From Muribaculaceae bacterium Isolate-036 (Harlan) (GTDB taxonomy: Bacteria > Bacteroidota > Bacteroidia > Bacteroidales > Muribaculaceae), in NCBI GenBank assembly GCA_003833075.1, contig RIAY01000001.1, positions 372,001 through 436,000 of the forward strand: a stretch of DNA of 64,000 nucleotides, written 5' to 3'. The translations under genes and the position numbers were made by a program. Numbering within the stretch: the first letter of the stretch is position 1; each line of letters starts with the position of its first letter. The notes below the pieces were generated by a model, which saw only the letters and a program-made list of their open reading frames with translations, ran no database searches and was not told the origin of the DNA. Positions 12,304 to 61,925 of the stretch are shown one piece after another.

Positions 12304-12341
12304 TCAATTCGTGAAACAGAAACCTCAATTTAAAATTTCTT

Positions 12342-14138: not shown

Positions 14139-14161
14139 ACAGCTTCTTAAAAGACTTCAAA

Positions 14162-15583: not shown

Positions 15584-15586
15584 TAG

Positions 15587-16933: not shown

Positions 16934-16950
16934 TCGTTAGCCGCTTCATT

Positions 16951-19056: not shown

Positions 19057-19134
19057 AAACAATTGTTCTTATACCGGCTTGCGTGTGAACGTCGGCCGGT
19101 ATTTTTTATTTAATACATTTATTAATTTGACATT

Positions 19135-39678: not shown

Positions 39679-41301
<1,623 letters not shown>

Positions 41302-42384: not shown

Positions 42385-42413
42385 GTCGGTGGATAGTTTT
42401 GGTTATGTGATGA

Positions 42414-43835: not shown

Positions 43836-44646
43836 TTCCTAAGAGAGATTGATAGAATTGATGGTATTTGTCGGAGTTGTCCTCTTCCGGATTTAGCGAG
43901 AGCACGGGCATTCCGAGCTTTTCCACATATTCCACAAGTTCCGGATCCGGCGTGCGGTTATTGAAAATCACCGCGTCAGAGTTGGCGATTCCTATTTTGT
44001 GCAGGAGGTTGGTGTTTGCCGGGAGGTCGAGAAAATCCTTGAGGTCATTCCCTTTTATTCCGTCTTCACTGAGTTTCTTGAGAAATTCTGGATCTATGGC
44101 ATCCGCAGGAGTCTCGTCAAGCAGAGAATAGACTATTTTGGTCCCGTTGAAAGACACACCGTCGGAAAAGACCTTTTTCACATACAACGGCACCAATGCC
44201 GCGATCCATCCTGATGTGTGCAGAATGTCCGGCTCCCATCTGAGCTTGCGCGCGGTGTCGACGGTACCGCGGGAAAAGAAAATAACGCGTTCGTCATTGT
44301 CGGGACGGTTTGTGCCGACATTGTCCACATCATCCTCAAGTTTCTGGAAATAATCGTCGTTGTCGATGAAATAAACCTGAATGCGAGAGGGCTGCATAGA
44401 AGCCACTTTTATAATGAGAGGATGATCGGCGTCTTTGATAGGAATGTTGATTCCGCTGAGACGTATCACCTCGTGCAGCTGGTTGCGGCGTTCGTTGACG
44501 TTGCCGAAATTGGGCATGAAGGTTCTGACTTCATACTTCTTGCCATGCATAGCTACCGGAAGATCTCGGCCTAACTGTGCAATCTCCGAGGCTGGGAGAT
44601 ATGGCGCTATTTCGGGAGAGACATAAAGGATTCGTTGTTTTGCCAT
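43825..44646 (-). CDS. Glycogen/starch synthase, N-terminal catalytic domain only
   Basis: Start at 44646 (MAKQRILYVSPEIAPYLPASE). The 273 residues cover the GT5 N-terminal domain: EIAPYLPASEIAQLGRDLP, PNFGNVNERR, and DILHTSGWIAALVPLYVKK. Full glycogen synthases are about 480-560 residues, so the C-terminal half with the ADP-glucose site is absent. This short form, paired with DUF4270, recurs in Bacteroidota, so it is probably not a broken gene. Activity alone is unlikely. It may be regulatory or need a partner. Confidence 0.85.
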   Translation of the reverse strand: MAKQRILYVSPEIAPYLPASEIAQLGRDLPVAMHGKKYEVRTFMPNFGNVNERRNQLHEVIRLSGINIPIKDADHPLIIKVASMQPSRIQVYFIDNDDYFQKLEDDVDNVGTNRPDNDERVIFFSRGTVDTARKLRWEPDILHTSGWIAALVPLYVKKVFSDGVSFNGTKIVYSLLDETPADAIDPEFLKKLSEDGIKGNDLKDFLDLPANTNLLHKIGIANSDAVIFNNRTPDPELVEYVEKLGMPVLSLNPEEDNSDKYHQFYQSLLGNEA

Positions 44647-44836
44647 ATTGTTCGGTTTGCAGTGCTTATGGCTCTGTTCTCCACAGAGCGCACCAAGCGG
44701 ATGCAAAGTTAATAAAAAAAATCGAGATTCCGGTGGTTTGCGGTCACGGTGCCGTGTTTCTGCTCCTTAAAATATGTGAAATTGGTCGGATTTGAGGATA
44801 ATGACGTAAAAAATTTAGAAATTAGTAAGTTTTGAT

Positions 44837-44961
44837 TAATTTTGCAGGTTGAAAAAATGAAGGAGTCGGAACAAGACGCCTTCTTAATTGAGTTTCGCAA
44901 GCATATGCCCGGAATGCACATGGATTCCATGTCGCTCATTCGGGTTGTCTGCGCAAATTGA
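44837..44961 (+). CDS. Possible 34-residue leader ORF before panC
   Basis: A TAATTTTG -7 element (44837-44844) lies just before an ATG at 44857-44859. The ORF runs to TGA at 44959-44961, 12 bases before the panC ATG, and encodes a Met-rich 34-residue peptide (five Met) with no family match. It may be a leader peptide, a small protein or chance. The CDS itself is 44857-44961. Confidence 0.35.
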
Positions 44962-44973
44962 AACCTGAATAAA

Positions 44974-45837
44974 ATGATAATAATCAGAAAGGTCGCTGAA
45001 CTCCTCGATTTTGTGGAGCTTCAGAAAGAACAAGGGAATGCTGTGGGACTTGTGCCCACTATGGGAGCTTTGCATGCCGGCCATTTGTCGCTTGTGGAGC
45101 GGGCTGTAAAAGAGAATCCATGTGTGATCGCGAGTGTATTTGTCAATCCGACGCAGTTCAACAATCCTACGGATCTCGCCACATATCCGCGCAAGGAGGA
45201 AGACGATTTCAAGATGCTTGCCGAGGCGGGAGTATCGGCAGTTTTCGCGCCTTCCGTAGAGGAGATGTATCCCGGAGGTCCGGAAGCTCAGCCGCGCCAT
45301 GAATTCGAGCTTGGCACGGCGGCAGAGGTGATGGAGGGACGTTTCCGTCCCGGTCATTTTCAGGGTGTGGCACAGGTCGTGAGTCTTCTTTTCCGTCTGT
45401 GCAGTCCGACACGGGCTTATTTCGGAGAAAAGGACTTCCAGCAGATTGCCGTTATCCGCAATATGATCGAAACCGAGGGAATAGATGTGGAGATTGTGGC
45501 GTGTCCCATAAAACGGGCAGACGATGGTCTTGCACTCTCAAGCCGCAACGCATTGCTTTCCGAAGAGCAGAGAGCTGTGGCTCCTGAGATTCACAGGGCA
45601 TTGGAATATAGTGTCGTATATTCGCGTGAACATAGTGTCGGAGCCACACATGACACTGTCGTGGAGCGCATCGATGCCGTGCCGTTTATGAGAGTAGAGT
45701 ATTTTGAGATTGTAGACGCCCGCACGCTCCTTCCTGTGGAAGAGTGGGATGAAAGTCCGTGGATTGTCGGATGCATTACGGTCTATTGCGGAGATGTGAG
45801 ACTTATCGATAATGTGACTTATAAAAAAGAGATTTGA
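44974..45837 (+). CDS. panC: Pantothenate synthetase
   Basis: The 287 residues match PanC, which joins pantoate and beta-alanine with ATP to make vitamin B5. Seen are [15 protein letters not shown] with the ATP-binding HxGH-like motif, [32 protein letters not shown] and [12 protein letters not shown]. It is followed after 4 bp by panD, which supplies the beta-alanine, so the two enzymes of one step sequence are co-expressed. Confidence 0.97.
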
Positions 45838-45841
45838 GGAT

Positions 45842-46189
45842 ATGCTTATCGAAATGATGAAATCGAAGATTCACCGTGTTACAGTGACAGAGGCGAATCT
45901 TAATTATATAGGGAGCATCACGATTGACAAACGTCTTCTGGATGCCGCCGATATTCTGCCTGGTCAGAGAGTGTGGATCGTAAACAACAATAACGGCGAG
46001 AGGTTCGACACCTATGTGATAGAGGGAGAAGCTGACAGCGGTGTGATTTGTCTCAACGGTGCGGCTGCCCGCAAGGCGCAGCCCGGCGATGTGGTGATTA
46101 TAATGACTTATGCCCAGCTCACTCCCGAGGAGGCAAAGACCTGGAAACCCAAGGTGATATTTCCCGATACAGAAACCAACAAATTGTAA
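45842..46189 (+). CDS. panD: Aspartate 1-decarboxylase proenzyme
   Basis: The 115 residues have [18 protein letters not shown] at the start and the self-cleavage site YIG-SIT, where the chain splits between Gly24 and Ser25 to form the pyruvoyl group. [20 protein letters not shown] and [18 protein letters not shown] follow. It turns aspartate into beta-alanine for PanC. The panD stop is 6 bp before ffh, so all three may share a transcript. Confidence 0.96.
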
Positions 46190-46195
46190 TTCCGT

Positions 46196-47539
46196 ATGTT
46201 TGAAAATCTGTCGGAACGCCTTGAGCGTTCATTCAAGATATTGAAAGGTGAAGGCAAGATTACCGAAATTAATGTTGCAGAGACCCTTAAGGATGTAAGA
46301 CGTGCATTGCTTGATGCCGATGTCAACTATAAGGTTGCAAAAACGTTCACTGACACGGTTAAAAAGAAAGCCATGGGTCAGAACGTTATCAATGCCCTCA
46401 AGCCGAAGGAGCTGATGGTCAAGATTGTCCACGATGAGCTGACGGAGATGATGGGAGGCACGGAAGCTCCTTTGAATCTTGACGGGAATCCGGCAGTTAT
46501 CCTGATGTCGGGTCTGCAGGGTGCCGGTAAGACAACTTTCGCGGGTAAGCTTGCACGCAAGCTTAAATCTGCGAAAGGGAAGCGTCCGTTGCTTGTCGGT
46601 GCCGACGTTTATCGTCCTGCCGCCCGTGAACAGTTGAGAGTGCTCGCTGCAAGTATCGGTGTGCCTGTCTATACGGAAGAAGACAGTAAGGATCCTGTGC
46701 AGATCGCTCTTAACGCCATTGCTCATGCAAAATCGAATCATCTTGATTTGGTTATTGTCGACACTGCCGGACGTCTCGCTGTAGACGAAGAGATGATGGA
46801 TGAGATCGAGCGCATCAAGAAGGCGATCAGACCTCAGGAAACATTGTTCGTGGTTGACTCCATGACCGGTCAAGACGCTGTCAACACGGCAAAGACATTT
46901 AATGACCGTCTTGATTTCGATGGTGTGGTCCTCACGAAACTTGATGGTGACACCCGAGGCGGTGCTGCACTTTCAATTCGTGCGGTGGTTGACAAGCCCA
47001 TCAAATATGTCGGTACCGGTGAGAAGCTTGAGGATATCCAAGAGTTCAATCCCGAGGGTATGGCTAACCGTATCCTCGGCATGGGCGATATCGTGGAGCT
47101 TGCCAAACGTGCGCAAGAGATCTATGACCAGAAAGAGGCGGAAAGGATTCAAGAGAAGATCAAGAAGAATAAATTTGACTTCGACGATTTCTTGAAACAG
47201 ATAGAGAACATCAAGAAGATGGGTAACATCAAGGATCTTGCCGCAATGATTCCCGGTGTGGGCAAAGCGATCAAGGATGTTGATATAGATAATAACGCTT
47301 TCAAGGGTATTGAAGCGATAATTCATTCAATGACTCCTTATGAGCGTCAGAATCCGGAAGTGATAAAAGGCACGCGCCGTCAGCGCATAGCTAAAGGTTC
47401 CGGCACATCGTTACAGGATGTGAACAAGCTGCTGAAGCAGTTTGAAGACACCCGCAAGATGATGAAGATGGCGACTTCAATGAAGAATCCTATGAAGATG
47501 ATGCGCCAGATGAAGCAGCAGGGCGGACGCCGCTTCTAA
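46196..47539 (+). CDS. ffh: Signal recognition particle protein Ffh
   Basis: The 447-residue Ffh has an N domain, the GTPase G domain (SGLQGAGKTTFAGKLA, VIVDTAGRLAVDEEM, VLTKLDGDTRGGAALS) and a methionine-rich M domain at the end (MMKMATSMKNPMKMMRQMK) that binds signal sequences and SRP RNA. It guides proteins to the membrane while they are made. A terminator follows at once. Confidence 0.97.
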   Translation: MFENLSERLERSFKILKGEGKITEINVAETLKDVRRALLDADVNYKVAKTFTDTVKKKAMGQNVINALKPKELMVKIVHDELTEMMGGTEAPLNLDGNPAVILMSGLQGAGKTTFAGKLARKLKSAKGKRPLLVGADVYRPAAREQLRVLAASIGVPVYTEEDSKDPVQIALNAIAHAKSNHLDLVIVDTAGRLAVDEEMMDEIERIKKAIRPQETLFVVDSMTGQDAVNTAKTFNDRLDFDGVVLTKLDGDTRGGAALSIRAVVDKPIKYVGTGEKLEDIQEFNPEGMANRILGMGDIVELAKRAQEIYDQKEAERIQEKIKKNKFDFDDFLKQIENIKKMGNIKDLAAMIPGVGKAIKDVDIDNNAFKGIEAIIHSMTPYERQNPEVIKGTRRQRIAKGSGTSLQDVNKLLKQFEDTRKMMKMATSMKNPMKMMRQMKQQGGRRF

Positions 47540-47552
47540 AGATATTAAAAAT

Positions 47553-47580
47553 AAAAAAGAGGGACAATGTCCCTCTTTTT
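47553..47580 (+). terminator. ffh terminator
   Basis: AAAGAGGGAC and GTCCCTCTTT form a stem with a three-base AAT loop followed by a T run. The T run touches the stop codon of the convergent DUF6377 gene, so the hairpin may serve both. Confidence 0.9.
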
Positions 47581-49202
47581 TATTCCGGATATATCGGACA
47601 TATATCCATTATTTCTTTTTCGAAAGAATCGCGGTTAATTGCCCGGTTACGCATTTCGGTCCTCCTGTTGAATATTGTCTGTTGAGAATAGAACAGGAGG
47701 GTCGCTATTTTTGTGCTGTCTGTAATTCCCATCCTGATCAGGGCAAGGATGCGGAGGTTGGCGTTCAGAAGTTCACTACTTTTAGGGCATATTGCCTTGT
47801 CGGGCTGTAGCAAAGTATTCACATTCTTTATAAAATCCGGATACAGCCGCAGGAAAGCTGTATCGAAGTTGAAGAATACCTCTCTCAGTTCAGCTTCCGA
47901 AGGTCTTGAGTTCGCTTGAAGCAGCTTTTGCAGTTCATTGTATTGTCCCGCTTTCACTTTCGATGTCACTGTCAGTTGCAGGCGATTGTATTTATCGATA
48001 TATCCCGCGCATAGGTTAAGGAAGAGGTTGACGTATTGTTCACGTGAGCGGTTTGTTTCCTGAAGCTGTTTGTTGAATACCTTAAGCTGGTCGTTGAATG
48101 TAGACAAAGTCACGTTCCTGTTCCTGATTTTTCTTTTTTGCTCTATGATCATCGCTATCGCGATGATCAGTATTATCACTATTATTACGATTGTTGCCAG
48201 ATACAGGTGAAGTTGTTTGTTTTTTACCAACACAGTTTCCTGATATGCCGTTGCAATGGCTGGAAGTTTCTTGCCTATTTCAAGTATCCTCAGCCTGTTG
48301 TTGTATTCCAGCGCATCATTCAGCGAATAGTTGAGATATGCATTCGCGCGTTCCAGATCTCCGTCTTCATTCTTGATCAATAGAGCCACATCCTGCAAAG
48401 CAAGATTTTCCTTCAAGGGAATCATCTGATCGGAAATAGCTGCATTTATGAGCCATTTCCTGTAGTTTGCCCTGTCTTGCAGGTTGTTATATGCCTGTGC
48501 CAATGCGAACGCCGATTGGGCGTATAGCCGGGAATTTTTAGGTTCTTTCTCAACAACCTTGAGATAATTCTTTTTAGCCGTTTCAAAATCGTGGTTGAAC
48601 ATTAATGCTTTTTCTGCAATCCTGTAATTATACAGAGACGTGTTCCGTGGAGTTACCTGGATAAGGGAATCCAAGTATGTCTTGCTGTTGCGATAATAAA
48701 TAGGAGCAAATGTCTTATCCTGTGAATATTCTGCCCATAATCCGTAAGTCCATTGGTAAGCCTGATAATACTTTTCAAGGAGTGTGTCTGACAGGCATGA
48801 AGATTGAATTTTCTTAAGTTCATCGATTGCTTGACTGAAATGTCCGGAGGTAGCATATGACATTGACTTGTGTATTCTCACCTTTGCGTTAAGATCGTAG
48901 TCTCCCGTATCGGAAACAAGTTTTTCAGCCAAGTTGATATATCTCATTGCCGAGTCAAAACTGAGGGTCAGATACTCCTCGTAAAGTCTGTCGTATCCTT
49001 TAAGCTTATCCATTATCGGGGCATTCACCGGGATTCTGGATTTAATGCTGTCTATTCTGCGTTTTTTATTTTTGAGGAATGTGTCCCTGATGCTAAGCAC
49101 GGAATCGAGACTTGCAAGGTCATTTTGGGGCTTGGCGTAAACAGGGGATGTCGTCAACAAAACAAGGAGCATAAATATTGGGAACGTTCTCATTTTATTC
49201 AT
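47580..49202 (-). CDS. DUF6377 membrane-spanning regulator of PUL 2 (SusR-like)
   Basis: The 540 residues have a signal peptide (LLVLLTTSPVYA), a TPR-like periplasmic part, one membrane helix (LYLATIVIIVIILIIAIAMI) and a coiled coil (LSTFNDQLKVFNKQLQETN). The C-terminal helix-turn-helix-like end is LRILALIRMGITDSTKIATLL and QTIFNRRTEMRNRA. It is a paralogue of the 7481 gene, divergently placed 251 bp from susC of PUL 2, so it probably controls it by binding the repeats at 49345-49422. Its ligand is unknown but may be an alpha-glucan oligosaccharide. Confidence 0.85.
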   Translation of the reverse strand: MNKMRTFPIFMLLVLLTTSPVYAKPQNDLASLDSVLSIRDTFLKNKKRRIDSIKSRIPVNAPIMDKLKGYDRLYEEYLTLSFDSAMRYINLAEKLVSDTGDYDLNAKVRIHKSMSYATSGHFSQAIDELKKIQSSCLSDTLLEKYYQAYQWTYGLWAEYSQDKTFAPIYYRNSKTYLDSLIQVTPRNTSLYNYRIAEKALMFNHDFETAKKNYLKVVEKEPKNSRLYAQSAFALAQAYNNLQDRANYRKWLINAAISDQMIPLKENLALQDVALLIKNEDGDLERANAYLNYSLNDALEYNNRLRILEIGKKLPAIATAYQETVLVKNKQLHLYLATIVIIVIILIIAIAMIIEQKRKIRNRNVTLSTFNDQLKVFNKQLQETNRSREQYVNLFLNLCAGYIDKYNRLQLTVTSKVKAGQYNELQKLLQANSRPSEAELREVFFNFDTAFLRLYPDFIKNVNTLLQPDKAICPKSSELLNANLRILALIRMGITDSTKIATLLFYSQQTIFNRRTEMRNRAINRDSFEKEIMDICPIYPE

Positions 49203-49328
49203 ATCTCAGTTTATTTGTATGCAAAGATAATATAATTTTTTTAATACCCAATGAGATCTATCCTTCTTATTAACACTACCCGATTCCAAATTAACTTAAT
49301 TTCTAATAAATTGATAATTAATGAATTA

Positions 49329-49339
49329 CCCCCCCCCCC
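49329..49339. repeat. 11-base cytosine tract
   Basis: Eleven Cs in a row sit between the regulator and susC of PUL 2, just before the ACTACTT repeats. Such runs change length by slippage. At this place a change would shift upstream sites relative to the promoter rather than shift a reading frame. Confidence 0.85.
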
Positions 49340-49344
49340 GATGC

Positions 49345-49381
49345 ACTACTTGAACTACTTAAAACTACCTGCCAACTACTT
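49345..49381. repeat. Four phased ACTACTT direct repeats
   Basis: ACTACTT, ACTACTT, ACTACCT and ACTACTT start at 49345, 49354, 49364 and 49375, about one DNA turn apart. They sit on one face of the helix some 25 bases before the promoter region, as activator binding sites would. The nearby DUF6377 protein is the natural candidate for binding. Confidence 0.6.
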
Positions 49382-49385
49382 GCTA

Positions 49386-49422
49386 TTGATAATTGTACGT
49401 TGTGGTTATAATTTTACCACAA
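49386..49422 (+). promoter_or_regulatory. PUL 2 promoter with palindrome
   Basis: TTGTGGT (49400-49406) and ACCACAA (49416-49422) form an inverted repeat around TATAATTTT, which itself resembles a -7 element (TATAATTTTAC). A TTG at 49386-49388 could be the -33 element. A repressor or catabolite regulator bound here would block the promoter directly. Confidence 0.5.
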
Positions 49423-49453
49423 AATCAATAAACAATAATTAACCTAAATCTTT

Positions 49454-52444
49454 ATGAAACCTTTTAATTTAACATTTGGACGGATGGTGCTTCTTGTGGC
49501 AATGTTGCTGCTGTCGCCGCATGCGTTCGCCCAGGTGAAAAAAATCTCAGGTACCGTGACTGACTCATCGGGTGAGCCGTTGATAGGTGCGAGTGTATTT
49601 GTTGTAGGAACCAATAAGGGAGCTTCGACAGATATGGATGGAAGATACACGATTGAGGCGAAAAGTAACGACAAGGTGCGTTTTTCCTATATCGGGTATA
49701 AGACAAAGACTGTTAAGATTGAGAATCGCACGGTTATCAATATAACGCTTGAGGAGGACAATACGGTGCTTGATGAGGTAGTTGTTATCGGTTACGGCAC
49801 CATGGATAAGAAAGAGTTGACCTCAGCGGTGTCTCATGTCAGTGCGAAAGACTTCCAGTCCATAGCGTCGACAGACGTGTCTATGCTTATTCAGGGCAAA
49901 GTGCCGGGGCTTTCGGTTGTCAACACGGCTGCCGCCGACCCTAACTCGGCAGCGAGTCTCCAGATTCGTGGCGTTTCATCGCGCGAGGCTGGTCTTGGTC
50001 CGTTGATCGTGCTTGACGGTGTGCCCGGAGCAAGTCTCACCAATATCAATCCGAATGATATAGCATCTTTCGACGTGCTGAAGGATGGAGCCGCATCCGC
50101 TATTTATGGTACACGTGGTTCCAATGGTGTGATTATCATCACTACCAAGAAAGGTGCGCAGGATGGAAAGGTGCATACCACTTATTCAGGAACTTTCTCA
50201 TGGGACAAGGCTAACCGTGACCTTGACATGATGAATGCTGAGGAATATAGGGCCTGGCGTATTCCTTCGGGTGATGCAGCAGTGGATCTCGGTGGTAATG
50301 ATGATCTTTTCGATATGGTTTCCCAAACCGGTTTCAAACAGACGCACACTTTGACAATCAGCGGAGGTGGAGCCAATACAAATTATCGGGTATCAGCAGA
50401 TTTTCGCAACGGAGACGGCGTGGAGAAACGAGGAAACCGTGAAGAATATGGTGCTCGTGCCACTATAAATCATGCTACCAAGGGCGGCTTGTTTAACGCC
50501 ACCTTGAATGTCGCACCCCGTATCGTCTATCGCAAACTTGCTGATAATGACGTGTTCCGTCGTGCGATAGAAGCGAATCCGACCACACCTGTATGGGATC
50601 CCAATGTTCCCGGGAAATATTATGATTTCTCAACTGTCAATGGTTTCGTGAATCCCATGGAATCTATAGATCTTGTGCAAGACAAGAGTCAGGAGAAGGT
50701 GCTCGACTGGGACGCTACCGTCAAGCTTAATCTCCTTCCCCTTTTCCTTCCTAACGCAAAATACAGTCAGAATCTGTCGACTCAGATAACTTTCGCCGAT
50801 CATCAATACAATAACGACGGCAGTTATTTCGAACCGTCGACAATGAATCAGAACCTTAAGATAAAGAAGAAAGGATATGCAAGCCGTACGGCTAACAATG
50901 CCCGTAGCATGAGTCTTGAATGGCTTGTTAATTATAATATCGGAATAAAGGATCATAATATCCGTGCCATGGCGGGTTATTCATACCAGTATTGGCAGAA
51001 CTCAGGTTTCTCCGCCAATAACTATGACTTCGCCAACGACGGTCTCGGTGCTGACAATCTTGGTTCCGGAGAGGGCGCCAAGGAGGAAGGAGAGGTAGGC
51101 ATGAGCAGTTACCGTAACGACAACAAGCTTATTGCATTTTTCGGACGTGTAAACTACGACTATGCCGGACGTTATCTCTTCACAGCTTCTTTGCGTCATG
51201 AGGGTTCATCCAAATTCGGAAAGAATCACAAATGGGGTAATTTCCCTGCCGTATCCGCCGGCTGGCGCATATCCGAAGAGGAATTTATGAAGGATACTTC
51301 CTCATGGTTGAATGAATTGAAGATACGTGCTGACTTCGGTGTCACCGGTAATCAGGAATTTGGCAGCTATCTGTCGCTTGACACAATGGGCTCTTTCGGC
51401 TATAGCTACTACAACGGACAGTGGGTGAAAGTGTGGGGACCCGGAAAGAATGTCAATCCAGACCTTCATTGGGAGAAAGGAAAGAACTGGAATATTGGTC
51501 TTGATTTCTCACTCTTCAATAACAGGCTCTATGGTTCGTTCAACTATTTCAACCGCCGCCAGCAGGATCTGTTAGGTAATTATCGGGTGCCAATGCCTCC
51601 TTATCTCTTCACTCACACCTATGTGAATGTGGGAACAATGAAGAACACCGGCTTTGAGTTCGATATCACCTTTAACGCCGTCCAGACACGTGATTTCACG
51701 TATACCATGAATTTCATAGGTACAACGCAATCCAACAAGTTTGTGGATTTCAGTAACTCCGAATTTGTAGGTAACGATTATTATGACGTTGCTTATACGG
51801 AAAATCCTTATCCGAATATTCCGCTCCAGCGAATTGAGAAAGGACGTTCTATCGGAAGTTTCTATATGTTCAAATATGCCGGTATCAATACCGATGGCGA
51901 ATGGCTCATATATGACAAGGATGGAGACATCATCAAGGGTATTCAGGGTTCTGAGGCTGACCGCCAGTATGTAGGCAACGGCTTGCCCAAGTTCACGCTC
52001 TCTACAAGCCACAATTTCCGCTATAAGAATTTTGACCTTTCCCTTTTCTTCCGTGGTGCGTTCGGTTTTGATATATTCAACATCCACGACTTCTATTACG
52101 GCACACGCAATTTCCCCGGAAACATGCTGTGTAAGGCATATCAGAAGAATGAGAAGATTTCATCGAAACAGAATCCCATTGTTTCCGATTATTTTCTGGA
52201 ACGCGGTGATTATTTCAAACTCGATCAGATCACGCTCGGCTACACGCTTCCCACGCCCAAGGCACGATTCATGGATCAGCTCCGAATTTACGGAACAGTC
52301 CGCAATGTGTTCACCATCACAAAATATAGTGGCATGGATCCCTCAAATTTCCAGGTTAATGGTCTTACACCGGGTGCTCACGGCGGTCGTGGATATTATC
52401 CCACCACGCGTCAGTTCATAGTAGGCGTGCAGCTTGATTTCTAA
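49454..52444 (+). CDS. SusC-like TonB-dependent outer-membrane transporter (PUL 2)
   Basis: The 996 residues have a signal peptide (ending HAFAQ), a carboxypeptidase-regulatory-like domain (ISGTVTDSSGEPLIGASVF), a TonB box region (VLDEVVVIGYG), a plug (DVLKDGAASAIYGTRGSNG) and a long barrel ending in RQFIVGVQLDF. It would import oligosaccharides with the SusD part of the next protein. Spacing to that gene is 30 bp. It differs clearly from the PUL 1 SusC, so it has another specificity. Confidence 0.95.
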   Translation: MKPFNLTFGRMVLLVAMLLLSPHAFAQVKKISGTVTDSSGEPLIGASVFVVGTNKGASTDMDGRYTIEAKSNDKVRFSYIGYKTKTVKIENRTVINITLEEDNTVLDEVVVIGYGTMDKKELTSAVSHVSAKDFQSIASTDVSMLIQGKVPGLSVVNTAAADPNSAASLQIRGVSSREAGLGPLIVLDGVPGASLTNINPNDIASFDVLKDGAASAIYGTRGSNGVIIITTKKGAQDGKVHTTYSGTFSWDKANRDLDMMNAEEYRAWRIPSGDAAVDLGGNDDLFDMVSQTGFKQTHTLTISGGGANTNYRVSADFRNGDGVEKRGNREEYGARATINHATKGGLFNATLNVAPRIVYRKLADNDVFRRAIEANPTTPVWDPNVPGKYYDFSTVNGFVNPMESIDLVQDKSQEKVLDWDATVKLNLLPLFLPNAKYSQNLSTQITFADHQYNNDGSYFEPSTMNQNLKIKKKGYASRTANNARSMSLEWLVNYNIGIKDHNIRAMAGYSYQYWQNSGFSANNYDFANDGLGADNLGSGEGAKEEGEVGMSSYRNDNKLIAFFGRVNYDYAGRYLFTASLRHEGSSKFGKNHKWGNFPAVSAGWRISEEEFMKDTSSWLNELKIRADFGVTGNQEFGSYLSLDTMGSFGYSYYNGQWVKVWGPGKNVNPDLHWEKGKNWNIGLDFSLFNNRLYGSFNYFNRRQQDLLGNYRVPMPPYLFTHTYVNVGTMKNTGFEFDITFNAVQTRDFTYTMNFIGTTQSNKFVDFSNSEFVGNDYYDVAYTENPYPNIPLQRIEKGRSIGSFYMFKYAGINTDGEWLIYDKDGDIIKGIQGSEADRQYVGNGLPKFTLSTSHNFRYKNFDLSLFFRGAFGFDIFNIHDFYYGTRNFPGNMLCKAYQKNEKISSKQNPIVSDYFLERGDYFKLDQITLGYTLPTPKARFMDQLRIYGTVRNVFTITKYSGMDPSNFQVNGLTPGAHGGRGYYPTTRQFIVGVQLDF

Positions 52445-52474
52445 TTCCAAGTAAAAACCAAGAATTAATTAAAA

Positions 52475-55400
52475 ATGAAACCATATAAATATTTAGCGGG
52501 CTTGGCTATGGCTACGTTGACATTGTCCGGATGTACGAATCTTGACGAGACAGTGTATGACCAGATAAGCTCCAACAACTATTTCAACACGAAAGAAGAC
52601 GTAATTGCTATGGCGTTCCGTTCTTTTGAGCACGGCTATTGGACAATAGTGCCACGCTTCAGGATTCAGGAGCTTCCGGGTGACCAGCTTATCATTCCCC
52701 GGCGCGACGGAAGCTGGGACGATGGCGGTGTGTGGCGTCAGTTCCATTATCACACATGGACTCCCGATATAGCGCGTCATGTGCATGACGAATGGGATTC
52801 CTGTTTTGCAGGAATCGGACAATGTAATTTCGCTATTGACCGATTCAGCGAGCTAGGTCCTGCAAAATTCGGATTCTCTGAAGAGGAGTTCAATTCATTA
52901 AGGACACAGAACAGGGTGTTGCGTTGCTGGTATTATATCCGTCTGCTTGACGCATTCCGCAATGTGCCCTTCTCAGTGAGCTATGATGATCCGTCGAAGA
53001 ACAGCATGGCTCAGGTTCCGCCGGAATTTATATTCAACTTTGTAGAGACAGAGCTTAAGGAATCCATTCCTTTGCTCTATAAGAAAGAAAGCCTTGGTTC
53101 CGGCTCTCAGTATGCCAATCTATGGACGCAGGGAGGAGCGGCAGCTTTGCTCGTTAGGTTGTATCTCAATGCAAAAGAATGGATAGGGGTTGATCGTCTC
53201 GCTGATTGTGAGAAGGTTGCGCAGGATATTGTTGACGGTGTTTATGGTGCCTATAAGGTTGATGACCGTTGGGATGCGCCTTTTGATTCAGAGAATGACA
53301 AATGCGACGAACTCGTATTCTTCTTCTCCGGATCTTGCAATTACACAAGCTGGCACTACAATCAACTATATAATTGGGGCGTGCCATCCAATTCAGAACT
53401 TTTCTTTAACGACTATAAGGTGAAGCATGGCGGACATAACGGAGAGTTTGTATGCTCGCCGAGTTATGACCCTACGGGCATGCTTTATGATTTTGAACTC
53501 GGCATGACGGTGCAGAAATTCAGGAAATATCCCGGAGATGTGCGTCTGGCGAAATATAAGAACCTCGGAGGAGGTAAACGTGAGGGAATGTTCCTTTTCG
53601 GCAATCTTGAATATACTCAGAACGGAATTAAGCGTAAGTTGAAGGCTCCTGAGATGCCATATGACCTTTGCATCCGTGATGCAGTGGGACAGTTCCATTA
53701 CATGAAAGAAGACAAGTGGCTTACATCCGCGAATAGCGACATGACCACCGGTGATTATAACTCCGGATGGTACACGGTGAAGTATCCGATGTATAGCGAC
53801 ACGGATCCGGGTGCCGGAGAAAGTGACTTTGCGGAAATCCGTCTGCCGGAGATCATATATGCTCTTGCAGAGTGCAAGCTTCGTAAGGGAGATGCAACGG
53901 GTGCCGGTAAACTTCTCAACAGTGTGCGCCGACGTTATTATCCCCAGGCAATGCTCAGACATGTGCTGTATGCACCTGAAGGTAATGTGGATCTTGACAT
54001 GGACGAGATGCTTGACGAGTGGGGACGTGAGTTCTTGGCAGAGGGACGCCGCCGTATAGATTTGATCCGTTTCGGAAAATTCTGTACCGGAAAATGGTGG
54101 GACAAGAATCCGGATGCCGACGACCATGCGAAGATATATCCTGTGCCGCGTTCCTTGACGCGCAATTCGCAGGATCAGGTGCTTTATCCGGAAGTTACGG
54201 ATCGCCCCGATTTCACATGGGTTGTTACGGATCATCCCGGGGCGCGAGAATATATCGACGGATTTTTCAAGCATTACCATGACATGGGTGTGAATTTCGT
54301 AAGGATGGACTTCATGTGCTGGTATGAGGATGGCGATCCGGGACGCGATTATCCGGTGACGTGCGGTTACGGAAGAGAGCGTTATGAGCGCGGTCTTGCC
54401 TACATCTGTGAGTCTGCTTCCAAATACGGTATTTTCACATCTATCGTGATGCCTGAACTTTACAATGACGGCGAATTGGAAAGGAAATATTGCAACATGA
54501 CCCGTATCGTTCAGGATACGAATATAGGAGGTTGGCATCATTTCTCCTCTTTCAACAGGGGTAAGATTTATGACCGCTGGCCTTATGCCGACAATCAGTT
54601 TGACGGCTTCACCCATTGGAGCCATATCGGAGGAAAGGGGAAGGTTATCCTTGATGGTGACTTCTTGCGTCTCAACAAATGTGATAATGATGACGAACGT
54701 CGTTCGCAGGTGTCGCTGCAATTGATTGCCGGTGGTCCGGTGGCGATTGCGGATACGCCGGAAACAATCGGTGACTTGTCCCAATTCTATACCAATGATG
54801 AATTGCTTGCACTGAATAAGGATGGCTTTGTGGGTAAACCTTTGTCCGATGTAGTCAACAGCGAGAAAAGTTGTCGCTGGTGGGGGACAATGACTAATGG
54901 GGACGTGGTTATTGCCATGTTCAACAGGGAATCGGTTTCAAGGACAATGAGTATGAATCTGGAGGAAATAGGTCTTGTAGGATCATATCGTGTCCGTGAC
55001 CTTTGGGCACATGTCTATGAGGAGTCGGTGACTGGCACTTATAAGGCTCAGATTCCCGCTCATGGCTGCAAGGTGGTAAGGCTTATGCAGAAGGATGCTC
55101 CTCATCCATCTGAGATTTTCCTTATCGGCAAAGCCACTCCTGCTTATTGGAATATAGATCAGGCAAGTGAAACGCTTCGTGAAGATGACGGCACGTTCGT
55201 TTACAGTGGTCCTTTGTTTCGAGGAGAGATAAGGTTTGTAAGCGAACGGGATTGGCATTCTGTAAATTATATGCCTGAACACAATGGCACATGGCTCACG
55301 GATGGAAACAAAGTGGAAGTTTTCAATGGAGATCCACATGAGCTGGCGAAGCATTGGTGGGTAAATGAAAGCGGCACATACGAGGTGAGAATCAAGGTGT

Positions 55401-56038
55401 CTGCTTCGGGCAATATGGCGTCAGTTTCGGCAATACGCATTGGAGATCTGCCTCCGATGGTGACTTTGCTTGGTGCCGCATCCGGCTTTTGGGAAAGCGC
55501 ATACGCTCCGGTTATTTATCCTCAGGAGGGTTCTTCCGACATTTTCGTATGGGAGGGCGCGGTGAAACCTACTGCCGACAGGAAGCATTTCAAGTTTGCA
55601 GCAAGTCCCGGAGAACCGGCGGAAACAACATTCATGATTCCGGAAACGGTGGATTATAACGGAAATGTAAAGACTGTGAAATTAGGGGAGACCTATAAAT
55701 ACTGCGAAGAAACCGGAGGCGGCAGTGATCATTTCTGGGGATTCGCACCTTTGGATTGCGGTCATTGCAAAGTGATTGTCAATAAGTCTGACAAGACCGT
55801 GTCTTTTTTAGACAGACATACGTCGGCAATATGCCAAACCGGTGTTGATTTTGCACTGAAGGCTTATTTCCGGGGAGAAAACCTTATTGTGGAGAGTGTA
55901 GATGAAGAAGTGGAGGTTTATGACCTTTCCGGACGATGCATTGTGCGGACGGATACCGGCTGGCTTTCTGTGAATTGCCCGTCTTCAGGTATATATATCG
56001 TGCATTCAGGCGGTCACACTCTCAAACTTGTAAAATGA
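52475..56038 (+). CDS. SusD-glycosidase-SusE/F-like-T9SS fusion protein
   Basis: One uninterrupted 1187-residue ORF. Residues 1-560 are a SusD lipoprotein (signal LSGCTNLDE; DEWGREFLAEGRRRIDLIRF near 530). At KIYPVPRS the SusD ends early and runs straight into residues 560-870, the C-terminal two thirds of a clan GH-D glycosidase nearly identical to part of the next gene, keeping nucleophile D612 and acid/base D681 but lacking the first three barrel strands. Residues 880-1110 are SusE/F-like carbohydrate-binding domains, and 1120-1187 a T9SS tail. A lipid anchor and a T9SS tail on one protein is contradictory. It looks born by recombination between SusD and a GH-SusE pair. Function of the GH part is doubtful. 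Confidence 0.85.
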   Translation: MKPYKYLAGLAMATLTLSGCTNLDETVYDQISSNNYFNTKEDVIAMAFRSFEHGYWTIVPRFRIQELPGDQLIIPRRDGSWDDGGVWRQFHYHTWTPDIARHVHDEWDSCFAGIGQCNFAIDRFSELGPAKFGFSEEEFNSLRTQNRVLRCWYYIRLLDAFRNVPFSVSYDDPSKNSMAQVPPEFIFNFVETELKESIPLLYKKESLGSGSQYANLWTQGGAAALLVRLYLNAKEWIGVDRLADCEKVAQDIVDGVYGAYKVDDRWDAPFDSENDKCDELVFFFSGSCNYTSWHYNQLYNWGVPSNSELFFNDYKVKHGGHNGEFVCSPSYDPTGMLYDFELGMTVQKFRKYPGDVRLAKYKNLGGGKREGMFLFGNLEYTQNGIKRKLKAPEMPYDLCIRDAVGQFHYMKEDKWLTSANSDMTTGDYNSGWYTVKYPMYSDTDPGAGESDFAEIRLPEIIYALAECKLRKGDATGAGKLLNSVRRRYYPQAMLRHVLYAPEGNVDLDMDEMLDEWGREFLAEGRRRIDLIRFGKFCTGKWWDKNPDADDHAKIYPVPRSLTRNSQDQVLYPEVTDRPDFTWVVTDHPGAREYIDGFFKHYHDMGVNFVRMDFMCWYEDGDPGRDYPVTCGYGRERYERGLAYICESASKYGIFTSIVMPELYNDGELERKYCNMTRIVQDTNIGGWHHFSSFNRGKIYDRWPYADNQFDGFTHWSHIGGKGKVILDGDFLRLNKCDNDDERRSQVSLQLIAGGPVAIADTPETIGDLSQFYTNDELLALNKDGFVGKPLSDVVNSEKSCRWWGTMTNGDVVIAMFNRESVSRTMSMNLEEIGLVGSYRVRDLWAHVYEESVTGTYKAQIPAHGCKVVRLMQKDAPHPSEIFLIGKATPAYWNIDQASETLREDDGTFVYSGPLFRGEIRFVSERDWHSVNYMPEHNGTWLTDGNKVEVFNGDPHELAKHWWVNESGTYEVRIKVSASGNMASVSAIRIGDLPPMVTLLGAASGFWESAYAPVIYPQEGSSDIFVWEGAVKPTADRKHFKFAASPGEPAETTFMIPETVDYNGNVKTVKLGETYKYCEETGGGSDHFWGFAPLDCGHCKVIVNKSDKTVSFLDRHTSAICQTGVDFALKAYFRGENLIVESVDEEVEVYDLSGRCIVRTDTGWLSVNCPSSGIYIVHSGGHTLKLVK
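54300..54546 (+). repeat. 247-bp tract identical to 56731-56977
   Basis: These 247 bases, covering both catalytic aspartates, are identical base for base to 56731-56977, while the sequence on both sides differs at many synonymous sites. This is best explained by recent gene conversion between the fused and the intact glycosidase. Confidence 0.95.
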
Positions 56039-56051
56039 TTAACCGAATCAG

Positions 56052-56071
56052 AATTTTCAATACTTACTTAT
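56052..56071 (+). repeat. 20-bp repeat shared with 58892-58911
   Basis: AATTTTCAATACTTACTTAT occurs here, running into the ATG of the intact glycosidase, and again at 58892-58911, 24 bases before the GH43 gene. The exact repeat before two PUL genes may be a shared regulatory site or a scar of the rearrangement that built this region. Confidence 0.7.
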
Positions 56072-57524
56072 GAAAAGATTTATTAACACGAAAAAGATAA
56101 TAACAGCATTGTTTTGCGCCTCTGTGGCGATTACGGTTTCGTGCAAGGACAATAACGTGGAGGGACCGGTGGAACCCACCCCTGATCCTGCTCCGGAACT
56201 GCCTGAATTGCCTGTTCCAGGTGATATTCATAAATATAAGGCTCCGCTTTATTGGACAATCTATGAATATGCACGAGAGATGGAGCTTGCCGGAATCCCG
56301 TATGATCAGATGGATTTGAGTTCTGATCAATGGGATGCCGTGATCGACATGATGGCTACTAAGTTCAAACCTTATGGCTACAACATGATCTGCACCGACG
56401 GATTTCTTCCTCAGAAGGCAAGAGACGGAGGCATTTATATGTCGCATTATGGTTCGATGCCCCTTAAAGAGCTTGTGCGTCGTGCCAAGGAAAAGGGACT
56501 GAAGGTCGGTATTTATGACAACCCATTGTGGATCAAGGGGAATCTTGACAGCAAGGTGCCCGGAACAAATTATTCTTTACGCTCGCTGACACGCAACCCT
56601 CAAGATAAAGTGCTTTATCCTGACGTTACAGACAGGACAGATTTCACATGGCTTGTCACCGATCATCCGGGAGCACGTGAATATATCGATGGCTTTTTCA
56701 AGCATTACCACGACTTGGGTGTGGATTACATAAGGATGGACTTCATGTGCTGGTATGAGGATGGCGATCCGGGACGCGATTATCCGGTGACGTGCGGTTA
56801 CGGAAGAGAGCGTTATGAGCGCGGTCTTGCCTACATCTGTGAGTCTGCTTCCAAATACGGTATTTTCACATCTATCGTGATGCCTGAACTTTACAATGAC
56901 GGCGAATTGGAAAGGAAATATTGCAACATGACCCGTATCGTTCAGGATACGAATATAGGAGGTTGGCATCATTTCTCTTCTTTCAACAGGGGCAAGATAT
57001 ATGACCGCTGGCCTTATGCCGACAATCAGATGGACGGTTTCACGCACTGGAGCCATATAGGCGGAAAGGGGAAAATTATCCTTGACGGTGATTTCCTTCG
57101 CCTTAACAAATGTGCCAATGACGATGAACGCCGTTCACAGGTGTCACTGCAGCTGATAGCCGGAGGTCCTGTGACCATCGCCGACACCCCCGAGACTATA
57201 GGAAATCTTGACAAGTTCTATACCAATGAAGAGCTCCTTGCCTTGAATACCGACGGATTTATAGGAAAACCATTATCTGACGAGATCGACAGCGAAGGCA
57301 GTTGCATATGGTATGGCACGATGAGCAATGGAGATGTCGTGATGGCGATGTTCAACAGAGAGGAAGCTCCTCGCAAAATGAGCGTGAATCTTTCGGAAAT
57401 CGGACTTTCCGGAGAATACAAAGTGCGAGACCTTTGGAAACATGCCGATGAATCCGCAGTTGAATCCGTTTTCACGGTTACTGTCCCGCGTCATGGTTGT
57501 AAAGTTGTTAAACTCACAAAATAA
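56070..57524 (+). CDS. Clan GH-D glycoside hydrolase (GH27/GH36-like), intact copy
   Basis: The 484 residues begin with a lipoprotein signal (ITVSCKDNN). A TIM barrel follows with strands LYWTIYEY, YNMICTDGF and LKVGIYDNPL, then GVDYIRMDF with nucleophile D224 and RIVQDTNIGGW with acid/base D293, then a small beta domain. This is the clan that holds alpha-galactosidases and the isomalto-dextranases of GH27. With SusE/F-like and GH31 partners, an alpha-glucan such as dextran is as likely a substrate as an alpha-galactoside. It is the complete form of the piece fused at 52475. The ATG follows the 20-bp repeat. Confidence 0.82.
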   Translation: MKRFINTKKIITALFCASVAITVSCKDNNVEGPVEPTPDPAPELPELPVPGDIHKYKAPLYWTIYEYAREMELAGIPYDQMDLSSDQWDAVIDMMATKFKPYGYNMICTDGFLPQKARDGGIYMSHYGSMPLKELVRRAKEKGLKVGIYDNPLWIKGNLDSKVPGTNYSLRSLTRNPQDKVLYPDVTDRTDFTWLVTDHPGAREYIDGFFKHYHDLGVDYIRMDFMCWYEDGDPGRDYPVTCGYGRERYERGLAYICESASKYGIFTSIVMPELYNDGELERKYCNMTRIVQDTNIGGWHHFSSFNRGKIYDRWPYADNQMDGFTHWSHIGGKGKIILDGDFLRLNKCANDDERRSQVSLQLIAGGPVTIADTPETIGNLDKFYTNEELLALNTDGFIGKPLSDEIDSEGSCIWYGTMSNGDVVMAMFNREEAPRKMSVNLSEIGLSGEYKVRDLWKHADESAVESVFTVTVPRHGCKVVKLTK

Positions 57525-57548
57525 ATTATTTAATTAACCTTAAAAGTT

Positions 57549-58577
57549 ATGAAACAAAATTTACTTAAGGCGATGGCATTAGGCGGTGTCATGCTGTTGA
57601 ATGCAGTCTCTATTTCTGCTGCAATTCCCGAACATCTTTATATGGTAGGCGAAGCTTCGCCAAGTCTGTGGCATATTGATCTGGCTCAGGAAATGACTAA
57701 CGAGGGCGATGGGGTATTCAGCTATCGCGGTAACCTTTATAATCAGAACCTTCAGTTTATTGATGCAAGAAACTGGGGTGGAGTGCGTTATGTTCCGGAA
57801 CATTCAGGCACATGGCTTATTAATGCACACGAGGCGAACGTTATAAGTGCTGTCGGGAATGAAAACCGTTGGTGGGTGACTGAGCCGGGAACCTATGATG
57901 TTAAAGTCTATTTTAGTGATAACGGTGAATCTGTGATGATAACTGCGCAATGGGTTGACGAGTTGTCTCCGTTGGTTGTTCCCCTTGGAGCTGCCACAAA
58001 TCAGTGGGACACGGCATCTGTTCCTCCCACATTCAACATTTATCCTGAAGAAGGAACCGAGGATGTATTCGTATGGGAGGGTACGCTGTCTCCTAATGAC
58101 GGTTGCAGTCATTTTAAATTTATCTCCTATCCGAGTAATTATTGGGAGACTTGGTTCTATGTTCCATCCGAATTGGATTTTAACGGAAACGTGAAGCTTG
58201 TAAAGGCGGGAGAAACATATCCGGTAAGAAGAACTTGGGGCAATAGTGAAAACGCTCAAGACCATTTCTGGGGATTCCCGGCAGAGGCATGCACTCCTGA
58301 TAAAAAATATAAGGTGACACTTAACCTTGGTGAGAATACAATAAAATTTGAGAACATTGTAGAGTCAGGAGTTAATGAAATTGCCGGAACTGAATTGAAA
58401 GCAAGCTTTATAGGTGGTGACCTGGTTGTGGAGGGTGCTTCCGCCGGAATTGAAGTCTATGACATATCCGGTCGTAAGGTGGCTCAGTCAAATGGTGGCT
58501 CACTTACCGTTGCAGGCCTTTCCAATGGAGTCTATGTTGTGAAGACAGCAGGCAAGGCGGTCAAGATTGCGAAATAA
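57549..58577 (+). CDS. SusE/F-like surface glycan-binding protein with T9SS tail
   Basis: The 342 residues have a plain signal peptide (SISAA), two SusE/F-like domains (HLYMVGEASPSLWHIDLA and VVPLGAATNQWDTA) and a T9SS sorting tail (VYDISGRKVAQSNGGSLTV). Each domain resembles its counterpart at the end of the 52475 fusion, so the two are paralogues. It should be exported by type IX secretion and held at the surface to bind glycans. It lies 24 bp after the glycosidase gene. Confidence 0.85.
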   Translation: MKQNLLKAMALGGVMLLNAVSISAAIPEHLYMVGEASPSLWHIDLAQEMTNEGDGVFSYRGNLYNQNLQFIDARNWGGVRYVPEHSGTWLINAHEANVISAVGNENRWWVTEPGTYDVKVYFSDNGESVMITAQWVDELSPLVVPLGAATNQWDTASVPPTFNIYPEEGTEDVFVWEGTLSPNDGCSHFKFISYPSNYWETWFYVPSELDFNGNVKLVKAGETYPVRRTWGNSENAQDHFWGFPAEACTPDKKYKVTLNLGENTIKFENIVESGVNEIAGTELKASFIGGDLVVEGASAGIEVYDISGRKVAQSNGGSLTVAGLSNGVYVVKTAGKAVKIAK

Positions 58578-58594
58578 TCGTTTTGAATATTGAG

Positions 58595-58664
58595 GCTTTA
58601 GGTTTTTTTTAAAAGGTCTTTAGAGTCTTTAAGGTCTTTAAAGTCTTTGTGAAAAACCTAAAGC
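58595..58664. repeat. Four 9-bp tandem repeats inside a hairpin
   Basis: GTCTTT begins at 58616, 58625, 58634 and 58643, exactly 9 bases apart, lying between inverted arms GCTTTAGGTTTTT (58595-58607) and AAAAACCTAAAGC (58652-58664). T's follow, so the hairpin may end the upstream transcript. The rest of the 58578-58935 gap holds a TAAATTTG -7 element near 58758, probably starting the GH43 operon, and the 20-bp repeat at 58892; no gene is seen. Confidence 0.7.
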
Positions 58665-58935
58665 TTCTTTTAATTTTTTATTGTCGGTTTTAACTAATCA
58701 TACTAAGTAAGTGTTGGAAATTAGCTTATATTAAGAAGCTGTTTAAAAAATAAAAGTTAAATTTGGGGCGGCTATCTTCGAGTTAAAATTCATTTAAGGT
58801 AAAGAAGCTGGCTATGCGACAGATGAGAAATCATGAAAGCATCCAAAAGATTCAAAATTTAAATAAGCACAACATTTACTTATTATAAACTAATTTTCAA
58901 TACTTACTTATTCTTAATTATTCTTTTTAATAGGC

Positions 58936-59934
58936 ATGAGGAAATTTTTAATGACGATTCTGGCGGCTTTTGTAGTTTTTAATCTCTATTCGGGAAATTA
59001 CAAGTTGTCAGAGATCAATATCCGGGATCCGTTTATTCTTACAGACACCGTTGAAGGACGGTATTATATGTATCGAACTTCCGATTCCATAGATTCCAAT
59101 GGAAAAATCAGGGGTGGTGTAGAAGTTTTCATGAGCCGTGACCTTGAAAACTGGGAAGGACCGAAGACGGTGATGCGCATACCAGACGGCAACGCCTTGA
59201 CCGGAACGGTATGGGCTCCGGAGGTGCATGCCTATAATGGACAATATTACCTTTTCGCCACGATCAACAGTGACATAAAATGGAAAAAAAGTCAACCCGG
59301 CTGGGGCGATTTCACTTTGCGCGGCACTCAGATATTTCATTCCACTTCACCGGAGGGACCTTTCGTGCCTTTTGACAAGTTTCCTCACACCCCCGACATG
59401 ATGGCACTTGACGGCACGCTCTGGGTTGAGGATGGGAAGCCCTATATGGTCTATTGTCATGAATGGGTGGAATTGGGCGACGGCACCATGGAACTTATAG
59501 AACTTACGCCCGACCTTTCCAAGACAATAGTGCCGTCAAAAGTCCTTTTCAATGGCTCCGCTCCGGAATGGTCAACGGGTATGCAGCCGTCTCCCGGCTC
59601 GCCACGTGGATACGTCACTGACGGATGCTACCTTTACCGCACGGGAAAAGGGAAGCTGCTGATGATCTGGTCAAGTTTCGGCAAAGACGGTTACGCTATC
59701 GGTATTGCCGAATCGGCTACCGGCTCAGTGAAGGGACCATGGATCCAACATGAAAAACCTTTCTTTCCCGATAATGGAGGGCATGGGATGATTTTCAAGA
59801 CCCTGTCAGGAGACCTCTGTCTCATCCTGCATCAGCCCAACGATCCCTTGGGTGCCGAACGGGCACATATCTATCCTCTTGAAGACACAGGCGACACCCT
59901 AATGTTAAAATCAAAATCCAATCATACCAAATGA
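58936..59934 (+). CDS. GH43-like glycosidase
   Basis: The 332 residues have a signal peptide and a five-bladed beta-propeller of the GH43 type. INIRDPFIL gives base D31, LDGTLWVEDG gives D159, and YCHEWVEL gives acid E176. GH43 enzymes usually attack arabinose- or xylose-containing chains, but some act on galactans, so the substrate is open. The stop overlaps the next gene start by four bases. Exported to the periplasm or surface. Confidence 0.82.
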   Translation: MRKFLMTILAAFVVFNLYSGNYKLSEINIRDPFILTDTVEGRYYMYRTSDSIDSNGKIRGGVEVFMSRDLENWEGPKTVMRIPDGNALTGTVWAPEVHAYNGQYYLFATINSDIKWKKSQPGWGDFTLRGTQIFHSTSPEGPFVPFDKFPHTPDMMALDGTLWVEDGKPYMVYCHEWVELGDGTMELIELTPDLSKTIVPSKVLFNGSAPEWSTGMQPSPGSPRGYVTDGCYLYRTGKGKLLMIWSSFGKDGYAIGIAESATGSVKGPWIQHEKPFFPDNGGHGMIFKTLSGDLCLILHQPNDPLGAERAHIYPLEDTGDTLMLKSKSNHTK

Positions 59935-61925
59935 AACCACTGCAAACCTGCCTTCTTGCCGCCTCTGCAATCCTGGCGCTCAACGGCAACGCATCTATCT
60001 ACAGGATTGTCTCTCCATCCGGAACCGTGACTGCGGAGATTATCAACGACGGTGACCTGTCATGGCGCGTCAGCCATGACGGAAAGGAGGTCCTTTCGAA
60101 ATCCCCCATATCAATGACCCTCACCGACGGCACAGTCTGGGGACAAGGAGCACGCGTGTCCGGATCCTATAAAACTTCAGTCAACAACACCATAAACGCT
60201 CCATTCTCACAGTCTTCAACCATGCCCGACAGCTATAACGGAATCACGCTGAAGATGAAAGGAGACTGGAGTCTGGAATTTCGTGCCTACGATGACGGAG
60301 TGGCATATCGTTTTGTCAGCAACCGCAAAAAGCCTTTCGAGATCACTGCCGAGCAGGTTGAGTTCAATTTCCCGGATGATTTCACGGCAACCGTGCCGTA
60401 TGTGCGTGGCGGTTCCGATGAAGACATGCAGTCGCAATTCTTCAATTCATTTGAAAACAAGTATACCGTGACTCCGCTATCCGGATTGAATCCACGTCGC
60501 TTGTCATTCCTTCCACTTGCCGTCAATGCAGGTAACGGGATAACCATAGCGATCACCGAGACTGACCTCCGGGATTATCCCGGACTTTACCTCTACAATC
60601 CGGACGGGACCATGTCGTTGAAGGGTAAGCATGCTCCATATCCAACAAAGACCGAAGACGGAGGATACAACAATATCCAGTCGGTCGTTACGGCTACTGC
60701 CCCATATGTCGCCAAGGTGTCATCTCCACGCACATTTCCATGGCGCATCCTCGCCATCGGGAAAGACACTGGAATCGCCTCCACCAACCTCAGTTACCTT
60801 CTTGCTGAGCCTTCGCGCATAGCGGACACTTCCTGGATCAAGCCCGGCAAAGTTGCCTGGGACTGGTGGAACTGCTGGAATATTACCGGCGTTGACTTCG
60901 AGGCAGGCATCAACACGCCGACCTACAAGCATTATATTGACTTCGCTGCCGATAACGGCATAGAATATGTCATCCTTGATGATGGTTGGGCTGCAGGAAA
61001 AGGGGAGGATCTGTTTGTCATAAATCCCGATATAAATCTTGAAGAAATCATTTCATATGCCAAAGGTAAAGGTGTCGGCATTATTCTCTGGGCGGGTTAT
61101 CGCGCATTCGAACGTGATCTTGAAAAAGTATGCAGGCATTATTCGGAAATGGGAGTCAAGGGTTTCAAGGTGGATTTCGAAGATCGTGACGACCAGCTCA
61201 TGACAACTTTCAACCATCGTGCCGCCGAGGTAGCAGCCAAGTATCATCTCGTGCTTGACATTCACGGGGCATACAAGCCCGCCGGCATCAACCGGACATG
61301 GCCTAATGTCCTGAACATGGAAGGTGTCAACGGGCTTGAGAACATGAAATGGTCAGACCTTGACACATTCGATATTATACAATACGACGTGACCATGCCC
61401 TATCTCCGTCAGATAGCCGGTCCGGTGGATTATACGCAAGGCGCGATGAATAATGCTAACAGGCAGAACTTCCGTCCCGTCCATACCCAACCGATGAGCC
61501 CCGGCACACGCGCACACCAGCTTGCCCTCTATATGGTTCTATATTCCCCTCTGAACATGCTTTGTGACTCCCCGTCCAACTACCGACGCGAGCAGGAATG
61601 CACCGACTTCATATCGTCCGTACCCACCGTATGGGACGAAACCGTGGTTCTTGATGGCAAGATGGGTGAATATATAGTCACGGCGCGCCGCAAGGGAAAT
61701 GAATGGTACATCGGTGGTATTACGAACTGGATACCACGGGAACTTGAAATAGACCTCACTCCCCTCAGACTGGGGGGCACCCGTGAGATGACACTCTTCA
61801 CAGACGGGGTGAATGCTCACCGCAACGGCAACGATTACCGGAAGGAGATCGTATCCCTGAAAAATGAGAGGTTCCTAAAAGTGAAGCTTGCGCCAGGTGG
61901 CGGTTTCGCAGCCCATATAAAATGA
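59931..61925 (+). CDS. GH97 glycosidase, retaining type
   Basis: The 664 residues start with a signal peptide and match GH97 throughout (DTSWIKPGKVAWDWWNCW). The catalytic site is of the retaining subgroup: KVDFEDRDDQ puts the nucleophile at D415, the same number I recall for the B. thetaiotaomicron retaining alpha-galactosidase, and E464 in NMEGVNG is the likely acid/base. The glutamates that mark the inverting SusB at 16951 are missing. It should act on alpha-galactoside or related links. Confidence 0.9.
   Translation: MKPLQTCLLAASAILALNGNASIYRIVSPSGTVTAEIINDGDLSWRVSHDGKEVLSKSPISMTLTDGTVWGQGARVSGSYKTSVNNTINAPFSQSSTMPDSYNGITLKMKGDWSLEFRAYDDGVAYRFVSNRKKPFEITAEQVEFNFPDDFTATVPYVRGGSDEDMQSQFFNSFENKYTVTPLSGLNPRRLSFLPLAVNAGNGITIAITETDLRDYPGLYLYNPDGTMSLKGKHAPYPTKTEDGGYNNIQSVVTATAPYVAKVSSPRTFPWRILAIGKDTGIASTNLSYLLAEPSRIADTSWIKPGKVAWDWWNCWNITGVDFEAGINTPTYKHYIDFAADNGIEYVILDDGWAAGKGEDLFVINPDINLEEIISYAKGKGVGIILWAGYRAFERDLEKVCRHYSEMGVKGFKVDFEDRDDQLMTTFNHRAAEVAAKYHLVLDIHGAYKPAGINRTWPNVLNMEGVNGLENMKWSDLDTFDIIQYDVTMPYLRQIAGPVDYTQGAMNNANRQNFRPVHTQPMSPGTRAHQLALYMVLYSPLNMLCDSPSNYRREQECTDFISSVPTVWDETVVLDGKMGEYIVTARRKGNEWYIGGITNWIPRELEIDLTPLRLGGTREMTLFTDGVNAHRNGNDYRKEIVSLKNERFLKVKLAPGGGFAAHIK

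Follow-up and report, generated by a model that had tools for sequence, protein, structure and literature searches.

The closest described relatives of the open reading frame (ORF) at 52475–56038 of our window, i.e. the 64-kb stretch of assembled DNA analysed here as a whole, belong to three families. With the SusD/RagB lipoproteins (PF07980, PF14322) it shares a lipoprotein signal, the SusD domains and a neighbouring SusC of the RagA/SusC family, but its last ~16 SusD residues, which hold the conserved QNPGY end, are replaced by a glycosidase fragment and a binding region. With the GH27 isomaltodextranase (PDB 5AWO/5AWP/5AWQ) it shares a homologous catalytic domain and the predicted catalytic aspartates; in contrast to that enzyme, the start of the barrel (~147 residues) is absent and the domain is probably inactive, while the copy next to it is uninterrupted. 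The third family comprises the SusE/SusF-type glycan-binding proteins (PF16411), matched by residues 883–1012, a region which, unlike in free SusE/SusF lipoproteins, sits inside the fusion chain. From the joint onwards, the domain order is that of the GH27-SusE/F-T9SS proteins found in two relatives, L063 (805 aa) and G712 (796 aa), which differ from the chimera in having their own signal sequence, a full barrel and no SusD attached.

The ORF lies on the forward strand, starts with ATG and encodes 1187 aa with zero internal stops. The matches to Pfam are ordered as SusD-like_3 (85–231), SusD_RagB (419–549), Melibiase_C (802–870) and SusF_SusE (883–1012), and the chain runs from SusD (1–559) through ~313 C-terminal GH27 residues and a SusE/F-like region to a weak tail of the T9SS type. 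This confirms the parts proposed in the first-pass annotation (SusD, truncated glycosidase, SusE/F-like domains and T9SS tail) as well as its placement of the junction, which falls at R559/S560 (nt 54149–54152), and a stop codon between SusD and the glycosidase is absent from the 1187 codons. The SusD part is 97 % identical at the protein level to the SusD of the sister genome G053 and the glycosidase part is 83 % identical to the adjoining uninterrupted glycosidase, i.e. far beyond chance, while the PF16411 match reaches 34.7 bits (cut-off 27.5). By profile the chimera falls short of a complete SusD, its GH27 is incomplete, and the curated cut-off does not class it as a T9SS substrate.

Table 1. 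Coordinates of the chimera, its parts and its neighbours in the window
Feature	Position	Strand	Remarks
DUF6377 protein, probable regulator at the locus edge	47580..49202	-	
SusC, TonB-dependent transporter partner, uninterrupted	49454..52444	+	TIGR04056, E 9e-225
SusD portion of chimera	52475..54148	+	Residues 1-558 of ancestral 575; lipobox LSGC; lacks the ...NP.L.QNPGYN tail
Junction codon R559	54149..54151	+	Bases CG at 54149-54150 fit both parental sequences
GH27 copy 1, C-terminal ~313 residues	54152..55090	+	148-460 in G053 numbering; predicted catalytic Asp612 and Asp681; Melibiase_C sandwich; N-terminal ~147 residues absent
Tract shared with GH27 copy 2, 247 nt	54300..54546	+	Identical to 56731-56977; flanks far less alike
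SusE/F-like region	55091..55891	+	Ancestrally in the same protein as GH27 copy 1
T9SS type A-like C-terminal tail	55892..56035	+	Below the TIGR04183 cut-off
GH27 copy 2, isomaltodextranase-like, uninterrupted, 484 aa	56070..57524	+	Closest PDB match isomaltodextranase 5AWO, E 2.9e-70
Separate SusE/F-like protein with T9SS tail, 342 aa	57549..58577	+	
GH43 protein, same locus	58936..59934	+	
GH97 protein, same locus	59931..61925	+	

The origin of the joint can be read from the relatives. In G053 (contig CAMWMW010000001.1, analysed as pieces L036 and L059), the region matches the window with 98.66 % identity over 47581–54150, covering SusC and SusD, and the match stops at the junction. There, SusD has 575 residues, and ends in ...PVPRVQITTNPALKQNPGYN followed by a stop. 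Behind it lie genes for a SusE-like protein of 162 aa and a GH27 of 460 aa; the latter also contains the RSLTRNSQDQVLYPEVTDRP sequence of the chimera. Compared base by base with G053, the chimera follows SusD through CCGCG and GH27 from CGTTCC, with CG common to both, and 1007 bp of G053 (L036:14261–15267) are missing from the window. The more distant L063 (contig JAETNS010000022.1) shows the complete ancestral order, namely SusC, SusD (575 aa), SusE-like (153 aa), GH27-SusE/F-T9SS (805 aa), GH27 (483 aa), SusE/F-T9SS (342 aa), GH43 and a GH97-type gene. G712, a closed genome from another family of the same order (piece L094), carries a SusD of 575 aa, a SusE-like gene of 152 aa and a single 796-aa GH27-SusE/F-T9SS protein, with the glycosidase copies in a different order. 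The arrangement of a 575-aa SusD with its stop and a SusE-like gene of ~150 aa behind it recurs in L059/G053, L060, L061, L062, L063 and L094. Since relatives keep the SusD end, a separate SusE-like gene and a whole GH27 protein, the direction of change is clear, the window representing the derived state.

We therefore regard it as very likely that the ORF is a chimera, produced when a locus for the use of an alpha-glucan (probably dextran-type) recently lost ~1 kb. Its genes would originally have stood as SusC, SusD, SusE-like, GH27-SusE/F-T9SS, GH27, SusE/F-T9SS, GH43 and GH97. From this row an illegitimate deletion with an overlap of 2 bp (CG) would have taken the end of SusD (~16 residues), the entire SusE-like gene and the N-terminal ~147 residues of the first of the two GH27 enzymes, the frame being kept by chance. 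The deletion postdates the split from G053 (~1 % divergence). The chimera would presumably be transcribed with SusC and yield a lipoprotein with a glycosidase part unable to close its barrel and a SusD lid that is impaired or only partly active. The loss may have been tolerable, because the second GH27 copy remains together with its SusE/F partner, as does a paralogous SusC/D-SusE-GH27-GH97 locus elsewhere in the same genome (contig C66), and these could buffer it.

What the truncations may mean for function differs between the parts. The SusD portion lies directly 3′ of the SusC gene, as is usual for SusD/RagB proteins, its translation carries the lipobox LSGC at residues 17–20 with a mature N-terminal Cys, as in the lipoprotein signal of this family, and both SusD-like_3 and SusD_RagB score above the Pfam cut-off. 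However, the SusD_RagB profile is matched over 250 of 297 positions in the chimera versus 297 of 297 in intact relatives, and a QNPGY-type end is found in nearly all SusD relatives with readable ends; the lid may thus be impaired. Asp612 and Asp681 are kept, with motifs that align with Asp in 5AWO, and by homology would form the nucleophile and acid/base pair. The full (beta/alpha)8 barrel is not present, the N-terminal ~147 residues being absent when compared with the G053 and L063 copies, and therefore GH27 activity is unlikely and this part probably inactive. AlphaFold2 gave a mean pLDDT of 41.0 for the chimera and of 49.7 for the L063 GH27-SusE/F protein, both from shallow alignments and too low to bear on the folding of the partial barrel.

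Concerning export, LSGC is followed by TNLDE, which resembles a surface-exposed lipoprotein; acidic surface export signals such as SDDDD have been described in B. fragilis (PMC5080379). The tail (1140–1187) scored 17.3 bits in the ORF and 21.6 bits in the genome search, i.e. below the TIGR04183 cut-off of 23 bits, and is homologous to that of the neighbouring 342-aa SusE/F protein, which passes with 25 bits. Since the genome encodes the T9SS translocon SprA (2695 bits) and many T9SS-type tails (18 matches), the two export routes, for lipoproteins and by T9SS, could conceivably compete for the chimera, although its own tail is weak.

We searched genomes at three taxonomic levels with overlapping membership, namely the genus (111), the family (397) and the order (393), ~800 distinct genomes in all. 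In many of them the SusD side and the GH27 side were recovered in separate frames, with matches ending near the junction. The joined SusD-GH27 frame, a recurrence of which in related genomes had been suggested as a test, was found in none of these ~800 genomes beyond the window's own. The exact junction had, as expected, no match in the viral contigs searched. Within the titles and abstracts of the open-licence literature, we found no description of a natural SusD-glycosidase fusion and no paper dealing with isomaltodextranase and GH27 together. In the same genome, the C66 paralogue, considered as a SusD-SusE fusion owing to a 1092-aa open frame, was rejected, its SusD having 575 aa with a stop and its SusE-like protein (505 aa) being separate. 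Because close relatives keep the genes separate, the chimera is most likely private to one genome and probably a damaged gene rather than a new surface machine. The first-pass annotation had proposed, for the case of expression, a new kind of surface unit, with lid, dead or assisted hydrolase and glycan-binding arm in one chain; while its parts and junction hold, the proposal itself is not supported. The joint is a recent deletion, confined to one genome among those searched, that cost SusD its conserved tail. The SusE/F-like region and T9SS-type tail are no novelty, as by sequence comparison GH27-SusE/F-T9SS is already one ordinary protein in L063 and G712, leaving only the SusD-GH27 joint as new. 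A striking multi-domain ORF can, in other words, be the scar of one in-frame deletion, as comparison with relatives quickly reveals.

Against decay, it can be held that the frame is open over 1187 codons, without visible decay past the joint; however, since the deletion is so young, the open frame means little. Substitution counts also gave no sign of relaxation specific to the window's SusD branch, amino-acid changes in SusD being similar on the window and G053 branches, with no clear excess on the former. We infer a loss of function for the chimera, which, if working at all, would act like a SusD with extra C-terminal cargo. That the fusion is expressed and useful, with SusD capping SusC, the tethered SusE/F-like region replacing the lost SusE-like lipoprotein and the glycosidase remnant serving as a spacer, is unlikely. 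The uninterrupted frame, the lipobox with acidic residues after the Cys, resembling the Bacteroidetes signal for surface lipoprotein export (PMC5080379), and the fact that a single deletion takes away the free-standing SusE-like protein and at once supplies a SusE/F-like region all speak for it, but the conserved C-terminal tail of SusD is absent, the partial barrel is likely to misfold, the fusion is absent from all other genomes searched (~800) and the deletion is too young for selection to show. Slightly less likely still is the full version of this reading, i.e. a surface lipoprotein in which one protein replaces two, with a truncated working SusD lid, a broken GH27 as spacer and a tethered SusE/F-like arm; a working lid tethered in this way is conceivable, but nothing found here supports it. 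A functional fusion would be a natural test of whether SusD tolerates large C-terminal cargo and operates with a tethered glycan-binding arm.

An assembly artefact, in which the repeated GH27 copies or a mixture of strains misled the assembler into making the joint, is more doubtful again. Misassembly between the glycosidase copies was a reasonable worry, given that the assembly consists of 68 contigs and that the two copies are identical over a 247-nt tract that begins ~150 nt past the joint. That repeat, however, excludes the joint itself, and because only 2 bp are common to the parental sequences there, an assembler would have had no shared k-mer to follow into a misjoin. Just past the joint, moreover, the sequence is 98–100 % identical to the copy-1 part of G053 versus 70 % to copy 2, and no other part of the assembly holds the deleted segment as a leftover piece, the window's genome having no second copy except the GH27 paralogues (66–72 % identity). 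With some residual doubt, the joint is taken as real in at least the major part of the sampled population. An ancestral fusion, from which the separate genes of relatives arose by splitting, is hardly credible, as no supporting point was found, all six relatives with the locus (6/6), including the closed genome from another family, have the SusD tail and the intervening SusE-like gene, both of which splitting would have had to re-create repeatedly, and the joined frame is absent from all deep-branching lineages examined.

The surrounding locus is directed at an alpha-glucan, probably of the dextran type, and the barrel of the chimera groups with GH27, with isomaltodextranase 5AWO nearest, the E value being that of the uninterrupted neighbour. 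Compared with G053 (window 40050–58692 versus L036), identity is 91.8 % at 40050–47556, which includes ffh, and ~98–99 % from 47581 onward. Because identity steps up at 47581, the locus appears to have been swapped or gained in one block beside ffh. In the separate SusE/F-T9SS protein, 17 codon differences from G053 change the amino acid and 6 are silent, the corresponding numbers for SusC being 2 and 17, suggesting that the former is a fast-changing surface protein. A second alpha-glucan locus is located at 9337–22752 and encodes SusD_RagB, CBM26, a GH13-type amylase, GH97 and a 1205-aa DUF4886 protein with a T9SS-type tail.

Tandem GH27-SusE/F loci rearrange often, as seen by deletion and probable conversion here, by formation of a hybrid in G053 and by a frameshifted copy in G712. 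The identical tract within the two GH27 copies of the window makes recent gene conversion between them probable. In G053, the 460-aa GH27 (L036:14828–16210) is a hybrid with a copy-1-like start and a copy-2-like end, which suggests that a crossover removed the SusE/F region of copy 1. The two GH27 copies of G712 (L094) share near-identical protein stretches, and one copy (L094:5993–7539) is split, apparently by a frameshift, into two overlapping ORFs (375 and 158 aa).
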